A DNA stretch of 64,000 nt from positions 1 to 64,000 of the forward strand of contig JAJUGR010000001.1 of NCBI GenBank assembly GCA_029265905.1. The letters are read 5' to 3'. This DNA comes from Sporomusaceae bacterium. GTDB lineage: Bacteria; Bacillota; Negativicutes; Acidaminococcales; JAJUGR01. Of this stretch, positions 42,016 to 51,987 are shown piece by piece (position 1 is the stretch's first letter; each line of letters starts with the position of its first letter). A program made the position numbers and the translations under genes. The notes under the pieces are model-generated. The model had not been told where the DNA came from and searched no databases. It was given only the letters and a program-made list of their open reading frames with translations.

Positions 42016-42381
42016 TCAGACGACGTGGCCCTCGTTGGTGGCGGCCGTCAAGACCGTCAGGCTGCCGCTTTGGTATTGCTCCAGGGCTTCCTGCACGCTG
42101 ATACCGCTGGGAATGGAATAGATGGCGATCTGGTTGGCGGCCAAAACGCGGAAGGCTTTCGGGCCGACTTGGCCGGCCAGCAGCACGGAGGCTTTGGCCT
42201 CGGCTACACGCTGGGCGGTTTGGATGCCGGCGCCCTGCGCCGCTTCCAGGTTGAGCTTATTGGAGACTGCAGTCCATTCTTTGGAGTCCGTGTCGTAGAC
42301 GAGCAGATAAGGGGCGCGACCGAACAACGGGGAGACTTGTTCGTAGGCGGCAGCGCCTTGCGCCGGAACGGCAATTTTCAT
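42016..42381 (-). CDS. NifX/NifB-type dinitrogenase cofactor-domain protein (ORP-like)
   Basis: The 121-residue single-domain protein begins MKIAVPAQGAAAYEQVSPLF and keeps the NifX-like core GRAPYLLVYDTDS and AGVLLAGQVGPKAF-type sequence (here ASVLLAGQVGPKAFRVL). Domains of this family bind iron-molybdenum cofactor precursors or, in the orange protein (ORP) of sulfate reducers, a Mo-Cu-S cluster. It lacks the CxHFGHC-like motif of its neighbour's domain. Minus-strand GAGGAGGG precedes ATG 42381. It is the last gene of the cluster. Confidence 0.82.
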   Translation of the reverse strand: MKIAVPAQGAAAYEQVSPLFGRAPYLLVYDTDSKEWTAVSNKLNLEAAQGAGIQTAQRVAEAKASVLLAGQVGPKAFRVLAANQIAIYSIPSGISVQEALEQYQSGSLTVLTAATNEGHVV

Positions 42382-42400
42382 GGCAAACCCTCCTCGCGAG

Positions 42401-43585
42401 TTAATGTTGGCACTCATGCCCGTCTTCGTGCGTGCAGCCGTTAATCCCGACGATCAGCACGTCGTCGAGATACTGGCGGACGACTTCCTCCGGAGCGATC
42501 GAGGGCGCGCCGGTAACGACTTCGACGCCGGCGGCGCTGAACAGCTCCTGCGCCCGTACACCCATGCCGCCGGCGATGACCAACCCTACTTTCTTTTCGC
42601 CCAGCCAGCGCGGCAAGAGGCCCGGCTCATGCGGAGGCGGCGTGACAAGTTCGGTTGCTGCAATATTGTTGTTTTCAATTGCGAACAGCGAAAATTGCTC
42701 GCAGTGGCCGAAATGCTGGCAAAGTTTTCCGTTGGCGACCGGTACGGCGATTTTCATAGCTTTTGCTTCCTCCTTTGATTTGCCGACGGCAATTTTGGCA
42801 ATGATATCGGTTAAGGCCTGATAAGCGGGCGATTCTTTGGGCGGCAGCGGCATGGAGCCGTCGCCGGCGTTGACGACGGTCGGGTCGATCGGCACGCTAC
42901 CGAGGAACGGGATGCCAGATTGGCTTGCCAGGGATTCGCCGCCGCCGGTGGAGAAGATGTTGTGCACCGTTTGGCAGGTCGGACAGACAAAACCGCTCAT
43001 GTTTTCGACGAGGCCGAGCACGCTGAGCTTCAGATCGTGGCAGAAATTGATCGATTTGCGGACGTCGGCGAGCGCGACTTCCTGCGGCGTGGTAACGATG
43101 ACGGCCTCAGCGTCGGGGATCACCTGCGCGATCGTCAGCGGTTCGTCGCCGGTGCCGGGCGGGCAGTCGATGACGAGAAAGTCGAGCGGCCCCCAGCTTA
43201 CGTCGCCCAAAAGCTGGTTGATGACGCCGATTTTCATTGGGCCGCGCCAGATCAGCGGCGCGTCAGGGTCGTTTGTTAAGCCTTGGATCGAGATGATGGA
43301 CAGGTTTTCGTCATAGTTGTAGGGGTGGATCAGGTTGCCGTCTGCTGTCAGGCGCAGGCCGCGTAGGCCGAACAGGCCGGAGGCGGTGGGGCCGTGGAGG
43401 TCGACGTCGAGCAGGCCGACTTTGTAGCCTTGCTGGCTGAGCAGGGTAGCGATGCTGGCGGCGACAGTGCTCTTGCCGACGCCGCCCTTGCCGCTCATCA
43501 CGACGATTTTGCGTTTGAAGCCGGCCAGATTGGCCGCTAAGCGGTCTTTAAAAGCTTGGTCAGTAGGGGTATGCAAAACAATCAC
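42401..43585 (-). CDS. Mrp/NBP35-type Fe-S ATPase fused to a C-terminal NifX-like domain
   Basis: Residues 1 to about 270 form a Mrp/ApbC ATPase: Walker A VMSGKGGVGKSTVAASIATL, DVDLHGPTA, DCPPGTGDEPLTIAQ and the metal-binding CPTC (about 207-210). Such ATPases carry and transfer Fe-S clusters. After SKEEAKA comes a NifX-like domain (about 277-394) with QHFGHCEQF and a C-terminal CTHEDGHECQH tail. The codons for that junction include AAAGGAGG 11 nt before an ATG at 42757, so the domain may also be made alone. The start is uncertain: GTG 43585 overlaps GAGGTGA, and TTG 43576 is well spaced from it. Confidence 0.9.
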   Translation of the reverse strand: MIVLHTPTDQAFKDRLAANLAGFKRKIVVMSGKGGVGKSTVAASIATLLSQQGYKVGLLDVDLHGPTASGLFGLRGLRLTADGNLIHPYNYDENLSIISIQGLTNDPDAPLIWRGPMKIGVINQLLGDVSWGPLDFLVIDCPPGTGDEPLTIAQVIPDAEAVIVTTPQEVALADVRKSINFCHDLKLSVLGLVENMSGFVCPTCQTVHNIFSTGGGESLASQSGIPFLGSVPIDPTVVNAGDGSMPLPPKESPAYQALTDIIAKIAVGKSKEEAKAMKIAVPVANGKLCQHFGHCEQFSLFAIENNNIAATELVTPPPHEPGLLPRWLGEKKVGLVIAGGMGVRAQELFSAAGVEVVTGAPSIAPEEVVRQYLDDVLIVGINGCTHEDGHECQH

Positions 43586-43627: not shown

Positions 43628-44491
43628 TTACAGGCGGCCGGCCAGTTGCTGCTTGAAGTGCGCCAGCGATTTGGACAACGCCTCGTCAAGCGGCTGCTGC
43701 AGGATTGTCTGCCCGGCCCGTACGGCCTTGCGGAAGGCCGTACGGTAGGGAATTTCGCCGATGAGGTCAATCCCTTCTTCGCGGCACCAGGCGCGCACTT
43801 TGTCTGATTGCGGCGCGGATAAGTCGCATTTATTGAGGCAGACAACCATGGACAGTGAAAAATGCCTCACTAATTGCGTTAAGCGTTGCAAATCGTGCAG
43901 GGCGGAAATGCTCGGTTCGGTTACCGCCAGCACCAGGGAAGCGCCGGTCAGGGCGGCGATCGCCGGACAGCCGATGCCGGGCGGCCCGTCGGTAATCATC
44001 AGGCTTGCGCCCTGCGCCTGGCCCAGCATTTTTGCCTCCTGCCGGACGCGGCTGACCAGCTTGCCGGAGTTTTCAATCGCCGGCCCGAGGTCGGCATGGA
44101 CCAGCGGCCCGTAAGGGGTGGCGGACTGGAACCATTCGCCGGCCGCTTTCGGCAGCAGGGAAATGGCGTGCTCCGGACAATTGTGGAAGCAGACACCGCA
44201 GCCCTCGCAGCGCAGCGGATCTGCGATCACGCCGTTTACGATCGCATCAAAACGGCACAACTGGGTGCAGCGGCCGCAGGCAGTGCAGGTTTTCAGATCA
44301 ATGCTGGGCTCAAAACCGGATGTGAACGGCGTCGTTTTTTGTCGTGCCGGTTGCAACACTAATTCAAAATTGGCGGCGTCCACGTCGCAGTCGGCCAGGA
44401 CTTTTTTCCCCGGCAGGGCGTGCGCTAAAAACGCGGCGATGCTGGTTTTGCCGGTGCCGCCCTTGCCGCTGACGACAGCGATTTCCTTCAT
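43628..44491 (-). CDS. MinD-family ATPase with two [4Fe-4S] ferredoxin sites (second copy)
   Basis: The 287-residue protein has a deviant Walker A VVSGKGGTGKTSIAAFLAHA, DCDVDAANFELVL, an inserted dicluster ferredoxin (CTACGRCTQLCRFDAI and CEGCGVCFHNCPEHAI, about residues 60-115) and DGPPGIGCPAIAALTGA. This matches the paired MinD-like ATPases of the orp/Mrp clusters in anaerobes. A scaffold or Fe-S delivery role is inferred from the family. Its ATG overlaps the stop of the upstream copy (ATGA), so the pair is coupled. Confidence 0.92.
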   Translation of the reverse strand: MKEIAVVSGKGGTGKTSIAAFLAHALPGKKVLADCDVDAANFELVLQPARQKTTPFTSGFEPSIDLKTCTACGRCTQLCRFDAIVNGVIADPLRCEGCGVCFHNCPEHAISLLPKAAGEWFQSATPYGPLVHADLGPAIENSGKLVSRVRQEAKMLGQAQGASLMITDGPPGIGCPAIAALTGASLVLAVTEPSISALHDLQRLTQLVRHFSLSMVVCLNKCDLSAPQSDKVRAWCREEGIDLIGEIPYRTAFRKAVRAGQTILQQPLDEALSKSLAHFKQQLAGRL

Positions 44492-45339
44492 TGCGCCCAC
44501 CACCCTTCACCGAGCAATTCTCGCCAGATGCTTTGACCGATGGCGATGAGGGAATCCGGCACCTCGCCGTTGGCGTAAGCGGCGGCCAGCTTTTCGTCGT
44601 GGGGAATGCGCGCCAGGATGGAAAGGTTGTGGCTGGCGCAGAACGCCTCCGCCTGCGCGTCGGCTTCCGCCCCTTCGCTCTTGTTCAAGATTACGGCAGC
44701 CGGCAGGCCGAGCAGCTTGATGACGGCAATCGCCTGGCCGAGGTCGTGGAGGCCGAACGGGGTCGGCTCTGTGACCAGCAGGCAATAGTCGCTGCCGCGC
44801 AGGGCGGCGACCGTGCTGCAGGCCGTGCCGGGCGGGCAGTCGGCGATGACGTCGACGTGTCCTTGGGCGGCCTCCGCCTTCAGCGCCTTGATCAGCGGGA
44901 TGCCGCTGGCGACGCCGATCGCCAGATGGCCGGCGATGACCTGGGTTGCCGGCCGGCTGGCGGCGCGGGCGAACGTCAAGGTACCAACTTCGCGGGGGCG
45001 TTCGGTGATAGCCCCGTCGCGGCAGGCGGCAAGGCAGCCGCCGCAGCTGTGGCACAATTCCTCGAACAGCATTGGCCCGGCTGGCACCAGCGCGAGGGCG
45101 TTGTACAGGCAGCGGTCGGCGCAGCGCCCGCAACGGATGCATTTGCCGGCGTCAAAGGCTGGCACGGGCACGGTGATCGTTTGCTCCGGATGTGTTTGCT
45201 CCGGATTTAAAAATAAGTGCAGGTTCGGCTCTTCGACGTCGCAGTCGATCAATAACGCGTTGGGGTTGGCGGCGGAGAGCAGCAGGGAAACGAGCGTTTT
45301 GCCGGTCCCGCCTTTGCCGCTGGCGATGCTGATGTGCAT
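44488..45339 (-). CDS. MinD-family ATPase with two [4Fe-4S] ferredoxin sites (first copy)
   Basis: The 283-residue paralogue of the next gene has Walker A IASGKGGTGKTLVSLLLSAA, DCDVEEPNLHLFL, the ferredoxin insert CIRCGRCADRCLYNAL and CHSCGGCLAACRDGAI, and DCPPGTACSTVAALRGSDYC. Of three clustered ATGs, 45339 is best spaced from AGAAGGGA. The two copies probably form a heterodimer. The region upstream (45340-45433) contains an ATATATTTCGTTATA motif also found before the DUF134 gene. Confidence 0.92.
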   Translation of the reverse strand: MHISIASGKGGTGKTLVSLLLSAANPNALLIDCDVEEPNLHLFLNPEQTHPEQTITVPVPAFDAGKCIRCGRCADRCLYNALALVPAGPMLFEELCHSCGGCLAACRDGAITERPREVGTLTFARAASRPATQVIAGHLAIGVASGIPLIKALKAEAAQGHVDVIADCPPGTACSTVAALRGSDYCLLVTEPTPFGLHDLGQAIAVIKLLGLPAAVILNKSEGAEADAQAEAFCASHNLSILARIPHDEKLAAAYANGEVPDSLIAIGQSIWRELLGEGWWAQ

Positions 45340-45366
45340 GAACATCATCCCTTCTTGGTAGTGGAA

Positions 45367-45380
45367 TATATTTCGTTATA
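45367..45380 (-). promoter_or_regulatory. Candidate DUF134 operator before the MinD-like genes
   Basis: GAATATATTTCGTTATA (plus strand, 45364-45380) matches GAAATATATTTCTTTATA near the DUF134 gene at nearly every position. On the minus strand it contains TATAAC, a possible -10, about 30 nt before the start codon. The rest of 45340-45433 shows no gene. Confidence 0.45.
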
Positions 45381-45433
45381 GGGGCAAAAAACCGCCTGCC
45401 GACGGTATGCAGATTCGAAATAAATGAGTCTGC

Positions 45434-45850
45434 CTAATCTGGTTGCTCCTGTCTATGGCGATGACAGCGCGGACAGGGCGGCGGATTGTCTTGGGGCTGC
45501 GTCCCCGCCTGCTGAAAGGGGCATCCCCCTTGACGCCGTTTGTGGCCGCAGCCGGGCGGACTGATCCGCACGAGCCCGCCTTCAATTTTGAGCGCTGCCC
45601 CGTGCCAGAGCGCCGCTGCGATTTTCTCGTGGGCGACGGTGACGATGCGGTTCAAGGTCGGGGCGGAAATCTCCATTTGCTCGGCGGCGGCCGCTTGCGA
45701 CAGGTGTTCCAAATCCACTAGCCGGATGGCTTCCATTTCGTCGAGTGTGAGCGTTACTTCTTGCATTAACATAGGCGGAAGGCCGCGCGGAATAAACGCG
45801 TCAACCGGCGGAAGCGATTCAATTAGTCTTTCTTTCGGTGGTCTGGGCAT
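45434..45850 (-). CDS. DUF134 family DNA-binding protein, probable cluster regulator
   Basis: The 138-residue protein starts MPRPPKERLIESLPPVDAFI, characteristic of DUF134, and contains a helix-turn-helix (about 40-95, LTLDEMEAIRLVDLEHLSQA then MEISAPTLNRIVTVAHEKI). The C-terminus is His/Cys-rich (CGHKRRQGGCPF, CPRCHRHRQ), suggesting metal or cluster sensing. DUF134 genes are often beside NifX/Mrp genes. GGAGG precedes ATG 45850. I infer autoregulation and control of the downstream ATPase genes from a shared palindromic motif. Confidence 0.85.
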   Translation of the reverse strand: MPRPPKERLIESLPPVDAFIPRGLPPMLMQEVTLTLDEMEAIRLVDLEHLSQAAAAEQMEISAPTLNRIVTVAHEKIAAALWHGAALKIEGGLVRISPPGCGHKRRQGGCPFQQAGTQPQDNPPPCPRCHRHRQEQPD

Positions 45851-45865
45851 AACCGCCTCCAAAAT

Positions 45866-45883
45866 GAAATATATTTCTTTATA
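45866..45883 (-). promoter_or_regulatory. Candidate DUF134 operator in its own promoter
   Basis: GAAATATATTTC (45866-45877) is a perfect 12-bp palindrome followed by TTTATA. It lies between the -10 box and the ribosome binding site of the DUF134 gene, a place suited to repression, and is repeated almost exactly at 45364-45380. Confidence 0.45.
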
Positions 45884-45888
45884 AAATC

Positions 45889-45917
45889 AATATACTGCTG
45901 CTTTTCTGCTTTGTCAA
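45889..45917 (-). promoter_or_regulatory. Promoter of the DUF134 gene
   Basis: On the minus strand TTGACA (45917-45912), a 17-nt spacer and TATATT (45894-45889) form a near-consensus sigma-A promoter. No gene is seen in 45918-46113 on either strand. Confidence 0.75.
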
Positions 45918-46510: not shown

Positions 46511-46548
46511 AGGTGTGCCGGCGGCTAGCCTTGGCCGCCGACACACCT
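46511..46548 (+). terminator. Long hairpin upstream of the alkaline phosphatase gene
   Basis: AGGTGTG (46511-46517) pairs with CACACCT (46542-46548), and CGGCGG (519-524) with CCGCCG (535-540). ATTGCGTTTTTC follows. It probably ends transcription from upstream before the phosphatase promoter. Confidence 0.65.
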
Positions 46549-46575
46549 ATTGCGTTTTTCGGGAATACCTTGTGG

Positions 46576-46629
46576 TTTACAAGTTTTTTACAAGACGGTA
46601 ACATACCGCCTATTGTTTTGCGCTATACT
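46576..46629 (+). promoter_or_regulatory. PhoP-box-like repeats and promoter of the alkaline phosphatase gene
   Basis: TTTACA (46576-46581), TTTACA (46587-46592) and GTAACA (46598-46603) recur with an exact 11-bp period. This is the pattern of PhoP sites in Bacillus (TT(A/C/T)ACA repeats). A -10 TATACT lies at 46624-46629 and the -35 region is poor, as expected for an activated promoter. The inference is phosphate-starvation control. Confidence 0.6.
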
Positions 46630-46653
46630 GAAGGCAAACATGAACAGGAGGCG

Positions 46654-48144
46654 ATGTCGTTGTTGAAAAACAAGAAATGGATAGGCGGCGGATTGGCAAT
46701 TCTCACGCTGGCCGCAACGCTGTTTGCTGCCGCCATGCCGGACGCTCAGCCTGCGCTTGCCGGGCAGGAACAGGGCTACTACGGGAAAACGCCCAAGTAC
46801 GTATTTTACTTTATTGGCGATGGCATGGGCATGCCGCAGATTGACGCGGCGCAGATTTACAAAGGGGCGCTCGCCAGCACTGATTCGATGCATAAAGAGA
46901 GCGTCAATTTCGCCTCCTTCCCTTTCCAAGGCATGCAATCGACGCACTCGGCCAACTCGTTTATTACCGAGTCGGCGGCGGCCGGCACCGCACTGGCGAC
47001 CGGACACAAGACGAATAACGACGTGCTAGGCGTCGACCCGACAAAGCAGATCAAATTCAAGACCATGGCCGAGATGGCCAAGGAAAAGGGGATGAAAGTC
47101 GGCATCGTGTCGAGCGTTTCAATCGACCACGCGACGCCCGGCGCCTTCTACGCGCACCAGCCGTCCCGCAAGAACCTGTATGAAATCGGCGTCGAGCTCG
47201 CCAACAGCGGTTTTGACTACTTCGCCGGCGGCGGCTTCCTCCAGCCGACGGGCAAGAAGAAAGACAAGCAAAGCGTGCTGGAGATCGCCCAGCAAAAAGG
47301 CTACAAGGTAGTTAACGACCAGCAAGCGATCATGAACCTCAGGCAAAAAGACGGCAAGGTGATCGCCATCCAGCCTGAATTGACGGCGGACCAGGCGTTG
47401 CAGTATGAAATCGACCGCGGCGGCCACCTTTCTCTGGCCGACTTTACCCGCAAAGGCATTGAACTGTTGGACAACCCCAACGGCTTCTTCATGATGGTGG
47501 AAGGCGGCAAGATTGACTGGGCCTGCCACGCCAACGACGCGACGACCACGATCCGTGATGTAACTGCTTTTGAGGATGCGATTGCCGAAGCGCTGGCATT
47601 TTATGCCAAACACCCCGATGAAACCTTGATCGTTGTGACGGGCGACCATGAAACCGGCGGCATGACGATTGGTTTTGCCGGCACGGAATATAAAACGGCG
47701 TTCAAAAACCTGAAAAACCAAACGATGTCCTACGAGGAGTTTGACAAGCGGATTGCGTCTTACCGCGCGATCGTAGGCGAGGGCGGCGCGGCGCTGGAAG
47801 ACTGGCTGCCGGTGCTGGCGGACAACTTCGGCTTGACGGCGCTGAGCGAGTATGAAGAGTCCCGTCTGCGCAACGCGCTTGCCGTTAGCGCGATTGAAGC
47901 GAAGCAACGTGCCAACGATGAGCACAGCAAACGGCTGTACGGCGGCTATGAGCCGTTCTCTGTCACTGTCACGCATATCTTGAACCAGCGGGCCGGGATC
48001 GGCTGGACGACCTACGCGCACACCGGCGTCGCCATCCCCGTCTTTGCCCAGGGCGTTGGCGGGGAGCGGTTCCAAGGCTACTACGACAATACCGATGTGG
48101 CGAAAAAAATGATGGGCGTCATGGGCCTGCAATTTCAGCAATAA
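46654..48144 (+). CDS. phoA: Secreted alkaline phosphatase
   Basis: The 496-residue protein has an N-terminal signal sequence (about 1-37, ending PALAG). The PhoA-type active site follows: metal ligand in YFIGDGMGMPQ (Asp56), nucleophile Ser107 in TESAAAGTALATGHKT, the Zn-ligand stretch MVEGGKIDWACHAND and VTGDHETGGM. It releases phosphate from monoesters outside the inner membrane. ATG 46654 follows CAGGAGGCG; the frame continues upstream through the promoter but without a ribosome binding site. It is longer than E. coli PhoA, in the Bacillus PhoA/B range. Confidence 0.95.
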   Translation: MSLLKNKKWIGGGLAILTLAATLFAAAMPDAQPALAGQEQGYYGKTPKYVFYFIGDGMGMPQIDAAQIYKGALASTDSMHKESVNFASFPFQGMQSTHSANSFITESAAAGTALATGHKTNNDVLGVDPTKQIKFKTMAEMAKEKGMKVGIVSSVSIDHATPGAFYAHQPSRKNLYEIGVELANSGFDYFAGGGFLQPTGKKKDKQSVLEIAQQKGYKVVNDQQAIMNLRQKDGKVIAIQPELTADQALQYEIDRGGHLSLADFTRKGIELLDNPNGFFMMVEGGKIDWACHANDATTTIRDVTAFEDAIAEALAFYAKHPDETLIVVTGDHETGGMTIGFAGTEYKTAFKNLKNQTMSYEEFDKRIASYRAIVGEGGAALEDWLPVLADNFGLTALSEYEESRLRNALAVSAIEAKQRANDEHSKRLYGGYEPFSVTVTHILNQRAGIGWTTYAHTGVAIPVFAQGVGGERFQGYYDNTDVAKKMMGVMGLQFQQ

Positions 48145-51003: not shown

Positions 51004-51030
51004 TCATTATTGTTGAGAGGGTGTTATATT

Positions 51031-51987
51031 GTGAAGAAAAGTGTATGGTTAGCGATGTTTGTTTTTGTTATGTCTGCGTGTTTGGGCTTTGTGAATATGT
51101 CAAAAACGTACGCAGCAGCGAGTAATGAGGGTAAAAAGGCGATTTTGGTCGTCAGCTTCGGGACTACGCACGCAGACACGCGTAAAGTAACGATTGATGC
51201 AGTGGAAGATAAAATCCGGGCCGCATTCCCGGATTACGAAGTGCGCCAGGCGTTTACGTCACGCATCATCATCAAAAGAATTGCCGAAAATGAAGGTTTG
51301 ACGATTGATACCGAAAAACAAGCCTTGGCGAAGCTGAAGGCCGAGGGTTTCAGTGAAGTCATTGTCCAGCCGCTGCACATGGTTCCCGGTGATGAATATG
51401 ATAAGGTCAGGCAGCTAGTGGATCAATACAACCAAAAGAAAGTTTTCGACAAACTGTCCTTAGGGCGCCCGATCTTAGCTTTTTCCGGGCAGGAAGAGCG
51501 GCCGGACGACTACCAGGCGGCAATAACCGCCTTGCAAACGCAGCTGCCGAAGCTTATGCGCCGTGAAGCAGTCCTGTTCATGGGGCACGGCGGCAACCAT
51601 CCCGCCAACGCTGCTTATGCGGCTTTGCAGCTGCGCTTGCAGGATGCGAATGTGAAGAATGTTTTTGTTTCCACGGTGGATGGCGAAGGCTACCCGACGC
51701 TGGAGAGCGTCATCGCAAAACTGAAAGCCAATAAGATAAAAACTGTTACGCTCATGCCGCTGATGGTCGTCGCCGGCGACCACGCCAAAAACGACATGGC
51801 CGGTGACGAGAAGGATTCGTTCAAGTCGCAGCTTCTGGAAGCTGGATTTCAGGTGAAGACCTACCTGCATGGCCTCGGCGAGAATGCGGCCATCCAGGAC
51901 ATTTACGTTCAGCATGTGCGCGACGCCCAGGAAAATAAGTACAAAGAACGGAGCAAGGAACGTCCGGCCATCCCGGTGATCGACTGA
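51031..51987 (+). CDS. cbiK: Exported CbiK-type sirohydrochlorin cobaltochelatase
   Basis: CbiK inserts cobalt into sirohydrochlorin in anaerobic B12 synthesis. The 318-residue product has a typical CbiK core (KAILVVSFGTTHADTRKVTI, VIVQPLHMVPGDEYDKV). The two metal-site His are at 186 (MGHGGNHP) and 251 (VAGDHAKND). Unusually for a chelatase, residues 1-30 form a signal sequence ending KTYAAA, so it should be periplasmic, as known for CbiK(P) of Desulfovibrio. GTG 51031 follows GAGAGGG. It lies 27 nt after the porin gene. Confidence 0.9.
   Translation: MKKSVWLAMFVFVMSACLGFVNMSKTYAAASNEGKKAILVVSFGTTHADTRKVTIDAVEDKIRAAFPDYEVRQAFTSRIIIKRIAENEGLTIDTEKQALAKLKAEGFSEVIVQPLHMVPGDEYDKVRQLVDQYNQKKVFDKLSLGRPILAFSGQEERPDDYQAAITALQTQLPKLMRREAVLFMGHGGNHPANAAYAALQLRLQDANVKNVFVSTVDGEGYPTLESVIAKLKANKIKTVTLMPLMVVAGDHAKNDMAGDEKDSFKSQLLEAGFQVKTYLHGLGENAAIQDIYVQHVRDAQENKYKERSKERPAIPVID

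Follow-up and report, generated by a model that had tools for sequence, protein, structure and literature searches.

Two near-identical palindromes flanking a DUF134 gene are predicted operators of an anaerobic Fe-S/cofactor operon

Closest described systems

The orange protein (ORP) complex itself includes MinD-like ATPases. The ORP and MrpORP operons of Desulfovibrio vulgaris, as presented in the available portion of PMC6345978, encode products like those of the operon analyzed here, namely MinD-like ATPases, MrpORP and Nitro_FeMo-Co proteins. According to the text available from PMC3897727, in which no DUF134 operator is described for them, sigma54 and IHF control the orp operons of D. vulgaris. 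At our locus, a predicted sigma70-type promoter adjoins the first predicted operator. The present operon carries MinD-like ATPase, MrpORP and Nitro_FeMo-Co genes together, the gene content of an ORP operon.

On the protein side, the closest described system is DeoR of Bacillus subtilis (SorC family; PDB 7bhy and 8r7y), whose helix-turn-helix (HTH) is probably homologous to the predicted one of DUF134. In the accessible part of PMC11229326, the DeoR operator is given as ATTGAACAAAATTTCAAT, with the arrangement TTGAA-N6-TTCAA, and an arginine of DeoR touches operator base G4; the layout TGAA-N6-TTCA is common to the DUF134 sites of types A, C and D described below. DeoR acts in nucleoside catabolism, whereas the predicted targets of DUF134 are Fe-S/cofactor genes. 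We found no earlier account of an operator for DUF134 (UPF0251/COG1342), of the palindrome GAGCATATGCTC or of a regulon in the open-access literature, so that the novelty of the findings is uncertain; PMC5886521, as far as its available text goes, lists no more than a UPF0251 gene disrupted by a transposon in an adapted rex-deletion strain.

Two palindromes and the operon that they punctuate

The window, that is, the whole 64-kb stretch of DNA that was analyzed, contains two palindromes that flank a DUF134 gene. A sequence-only reading had pointed out two almost identical strings and proposed them as a DUF134 binding site; both are present where that reading placed them. The core GAAATATATTTC, a perfect 12-bp palindrome, lies near the DUF134 promoter at 45866–45877 (no mismatch), within a 20-bp dyad at 45862–45881 (operator 1) that is situated between the −10 box and the DUF134 ribosome-binding site. 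The other copy, GGAATATATTTC (one mismatch), lies at 45363–45374 within operator 2 (45359–45378), before the first MinD-like gene.

Short AT-rich palindromes can arise randomly, and the two sites might simply be two AT-rich stretches that resemble each other by chance. With up to one mismatch, however, GAAATATATTTC has these two matches in the window and no others, while shuffled versions of the window had a mean of 0.05 matches and, in 100 shuffles, never reached two. Together with conservation of the motif in relatives and shuffles of the relatives' loci (see below), this rules out a chance origin, the probability of which we regard as negligible; the two palindromes are not a product of chance. 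Across all 2.42 Mb of the genome, AACGAAATATATTTCNTTATA with three or fewer mismatches matched only the two operator sites and a single unrelated position on a different contig; being a palindrome, site 1 appears twice among the matches.

The operon runs on the minus strand and comprises DUF134, two MinD/ferredoxin ATPases, MrpORP and a NifX-like protein. Its sigma-70-like promoter, TTGACA-17-TATATT (45917–45889), matches 11 of 12 consensus positions with a 17-nt spacer. The −35 box (TTGACA, 45912–45917) and the −10 box (TATATT, 45889–45894), both on the minus strand, coincide with columns conserved at the same place in relatives, and operator 1 follows directly downstream. DUF134 (PF02001; 45434–45850, minus strand) is an HTH regulator of 138 aa from its ATG with a Cys-rich C-terminus, and scores 74.3 bits against PF02001 (gathering cut-off 27; E = 1.2e-20). 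Its start, picked via an orthologue alignment, is likely the ATG at 45850 (MPRPPKER, with GGAGG before it) and not the TTG upstream of it. The window's genome has one DUF134 gene.

Downstream of DUF134, a terminator-like hairpin with a T-run (45391–45406, minus strand) lies between the gene and operator 2; it is a weak prediction, with one found against a mean of 0.9 in shuffles. No recognizable promoter of its own was found for operator 2. The remaining genes, all on the minus strand and assigned by domain search, are a MinD-like P-loop ATPase with a 4Fe-4S ferredoxin insert (44488–45348), a second MinD-like P-loop ATPase with a ferredoxin insert (43628–44503), MrpORP (42401–43585) and a NifX-like (Nitro_FeMo-Co) protein (42016–42417). 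MrpORP, an Mrp/NBP35 ATPase fused to a Nitro_FeMo-Co domain, has both domains and scores 501.4 bits against NCBIfam NF041136, above its equivalog cut-off of 450. Nearby, outside the operon, are genes for an alkaline phosphatase (46513–48144) and the cobalt chelatase CbiK (51010–51987).

Conservation of the sites and their association with DUF134

A class-wide protein search detected DUF134 in 171 of 380 genomes (E ≤ 1e-6), and a scan of named genomes yielded 80 DUF134 loci, including ones from Sporomusa, Pelosinus, Propionispora and Lucifera, by which the window is placed within or close to the Negativicutes. Some input loci represented one species under two names, and near-identical proteins were removed before counting; requiring a protein similarity under 0.93 reduced 157 loci to 125, which were grouped by predicted recognition-helix sequence, the groups being drawn after the sequences had been inspected. 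Group A, which includes the window, comprises 33 non-redundant loci. Phylogenetic footprinting, the check that the sequence-only reading had proposed, revealed GAAATATATTTC (0–1 mismatch) within 130 bp before DUF134 in 30 of these 33 same-clade loci, compared with 0.10 in shuffles; the motif was thus conserved, where its absence before orthologues had been named as the refuting outcome. Two of the three loci that lack it there (L036 and L085) carry the core after the DUF134 stop instead. The motif also precedes MinD, MrpORP and NifX-like genes of relatives.

An operator-centered alignment of 31 loci (group A plus L109, minus the three site-less loci) gave the full operator consensus in relatives as the 20-bp palindrome TTATGAAATATATTTCATAA, in which six columns are invariant. 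Conservation averages 1.59 bits per position across the dyad, compared with 0.26 for the far-upstream flank; apart from the dyad, strong conservation is limited to the −35 and −10 boxes. A promoter match was obtained in 29 of the 31 loci, and in 23 of the 31 the dyad is centered 12 bp past the −10 box, which is the position of a repressor; in the window this distance is 17 bp, compared with the usual 12. The placement bears on a rather unlikely alternative, namely that DUF134 activates transcription from these sites or both activates and represses it. Although an HTH of the sigma-region-4 type could contact RNA polymerase, in almost every locus the predicted transcription start lies within or ahead of the dyad, and the −35 and −10 boxes are near consensus, both of which fit repression.

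A second copy of the motif (0–2 mismatches) lies within 140 bp past the DUF134 stop in 20 of the 33 group A loci, mostly at 16–20 bp, and two relatives, L032 (with two or more mismatches) and L043, have a site between DUF134 and the MinD gene, as in the window. In L036 and L040, and also in L026 and L045, the post-stop copy sits inside longer inverted repeats, which in L036 and L040 have perfect 19-base arms around it, the outer arms differing between the two. Such an embedded copy may double as a hairpin or as an extended operator. These perfect palindromes, together with the terminator-like hairpin ahead of operator 2, would suit sites that work as RNA structures (a leader hairpin or a terminator) rather than as DNA operators. 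The RNA of site 1, however, is no more stable than that of shuffled sequences (−0.4 kcal/mol, z = +1.0), on which basis RNA structure was rejected for it, and the region of site 2 is ordinary (z = −0.4) and lends RNA structure no support; moreover, it is the sequence itself that is conserved, with its six invariant columns, and the motif is found before as well as after genes. An RNA role is accordingly very improbable.

Other DUF134 clades carry related palindromes of their own. Group B has TGACATATGTCA (0–1 mismatch) in 6 of 11 loci, group C has RGCATATGCY (exact) in 10 of 16, and group D has GAACATATGTTC (0–1 mismatch) in 10 of 16, a seventeenth locus being omitted for missing upstream DNA. 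The four palindromes of groups A–D show zero cross-matches between groups. Among 39 loci classed as other, two have an A-type and two a C-type site; one of four loci without a parsed helix has a C-type site, and the five loci of group E have none of these palindromes. Full C-type sites are exemplified by TTATGAGCATATGCTCATAA in L107. In Campylobacterota loci (L161), copies also stand before DUF5320-like or Nitro_FeMo-Co genes. Most of 30 further loci of the phylum, of Clostridia type (L225–L254), lack a clear palindrome, and four of them (L225, L226, L232 and L239) show degenerate TTATGAACAWATG stretches, resembling TTATGAACAWATGACCATAA, near the promoter.

Across the groups compared, each DUF134 subfamily goes with its own type of predicted operator, and kinship accounts for part of this co-variation. 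In L109, whose helix SRTTFF is D-like, the operator core is nevertheless a perfect one of the A type. A simple code from recognition-helix residues to bases is not claimed: L109 has this A-type site with SRTTFF, and the Clostridia-type proteins with SRPTFF mostly lack it.

The association also holds at the level of whole genomes. The 18-mer TATGAAATATATTTCATA, with up to one mismatch, is present in 44 of the 380 genomes, of which 36 are among the 44 genomes with a close DUF134 (E ≤ 1e-20) and 8 among the 336 others (Fisher p = 7e-35, uncorrected for kinship; counts tallied by hand from two listings). The eight close-DUF134 genomes without the strict 18-mer include the window's own, where it is the flanking bases that have diverged, and four members of a single family (G063–G066).

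For the target genes, 40 chosen site-bearing regions were fetched, many of them unlinked to DUF134, and families were named from Pfam and NCBIfam. These regions hold 85 sites (0–2 mismatches), 57 of which lie within 110 bp before a recognized gene, with none recognized near the other 28. The genes concerned are DUF134 (18), DUF5320 (17, one shared with MinD), MinD-like (6, one shared), NifU (5), cation efflux (3), NifX-like (3), MrpORP (2), CGGC (2), ABC ATPase (1) and MOSC (1), the CGGC, MOSC and ABC counts being partly circular because several reference proteins were taken from the same regions. The relatives' extra copies before cofactor genes (MinD, NifU, DUF5320, cation efflux, MrpORP and NifX-like) are sometimes on other contigs. 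The regulon that the sequence-only reading had proposed is thus supported in relatives, as a predicted small Fe-S/cofactor regulon; in the window's own genome the motif is restricted to this operon, which probably makes up the entire regulon.

Redox and metal regulators often bind AT-rich palindromes of this sort, and the Rex consensus, TTGTGAA-N4-TTCACAA, is similar in look. The palindrome could therefore belong to another regulator of this sort (Rex or a Fur-family protein, for example) that controls the DUF134 operon, with DUF134 binding elsewhere or serving as a co-factor. Several observations speak against this reading: the spacing here is N6 and not N4; within its own genome the motif does not extend beyond this operon; the site tracks close DUF134 across genomes and the operator differs by DUF134 subfamily; and where sites lie on other contigs, it is again these cofactor genes that they precede. 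We consider it improbable that another regulator owns the site. The proposal of a DUF134 binding site instead gains support from same-clade conservation, from a presence across 380 genomes that follows close DUF134 and from the link between operator type and subfamily, and the site remains a predicted one.

The DUF134 protein and a proposed repressor mechanism

The HTH that the sequence-only reading attributed to DUF134 was recovered at residues 36–83 of an AlphaFold2 model (pLDDT 82, from a 45-sequence alignment), in which a beta hairpin accompanies helices 36–47, 52–58 and 63–83; the model is of low quality in the Cys-rich tail. The closest relative of DUF134 by sequence in the PDB is DeoR (E = 9e-6 over 38 profile positions, a match to the HTH alone), and the top Foldseek match is the DNA-binding domain of DeoR on its operator (0.6 Å over 40 residues, 42% identity), with an E value of only 0.07. 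Given the alignment and an assumed 5-residue tag, the DNA-contacting arginine of DeoR described in the available part of PMC11229326 would correspond to the nearly invariant R68 of DUF134.

DUF134 differs from DeoR outside this domain. The large C-terminal sugar-phosphate-binding domain of SorC/DeoR proteins is absent from the 138-aa protein as judged by Pfam and the AlphaFold2 model, and in its place DUF134 has either a short beta hairpin followed by a tail rich in Cys or a fusion to a Nitro_FeMo-Co domain. The fold of residues 15–85 is also like the HTH of sigma-70 region 4 (VIA-align Z 5.8–7.3), a likeness that alone denotes a common arrangement and not kinship, and DUF134 has a weak Pfam match to Sigma70_r4_2. 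Unlike sigma-70, DUF134 has a palindromic operator and autoregulation, both predicted, and lacks the other sigma regions. Fusions of DUF134 to Nitro_FeMo-Co occur in four Negativicutes loci (L006, L008, L013 and L018), in L150 (Campylobacterota) and in L162 (Sulfurovum). Because DUF134 is fused to this domain, and in two lineages, the fusions suggest a one-component regulator that senses clusters.

Based on these findings, both palindromes are probably operators of the DUF134 encoded between them, working by the mechanism set out here, and the most likely role of DUF134 is that of a repressor that controls its own gene along with anaerobic Fe-S/cofactor genes. The computations establish the sites, how they are conserved and placed, their co-occurrence with DUF134 across genomes and the co-variation between operator type and subfamily; binding by DUF134, repression (as opposed to activation) and the signal are what we infer. 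A DUF134 dimer would place one sigma-region-4/DeoR-like HTH on each TGAA half-site of TTATGAAATATATTTCATAA. Operator 1 begins a few bases past the predicted transcription start, where bound DUF134 would block its own promoter and hence the operon, and operator 2 would add control over the downstream MinD-like, MrpORP and NifX-like genes. The signal may be a changed status of Fe-S or metal-sulfur cofactors, received via the Cys-rich tail or a NifX-like partner, upon which the repressor would release and the operon be made.

A DUF134 match is present in 274 of 398 sampled genomes of the phylum. On a broader reading, for and against which we see the chances as evenly balanced, DUF134 (UPF0251/COG1342) proteins would be widespread one-component repressors with an operator class of their own, approximately TGAN-(C)ATAT(G)-NTCA, that has diverged among clades in its central and flanking bases; the supply of metal-sulfur clusters would be sensed through a Nitro_FeMo-Co (NifX-like) domain, either fused to the protein or acting in trans, and the family would control anaerobic Fe-S/cofactor assembly in many phyla. 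Control of Fe-S and metal-cofactor assembly in anaerobes is known from few organisms. The predicted operator, the target set and the candidate sensor domain make DUF134 a testable regulator of this assembly, and its clade-specific operators are a natural series for the evolution of DNA specificity within one HTH family.
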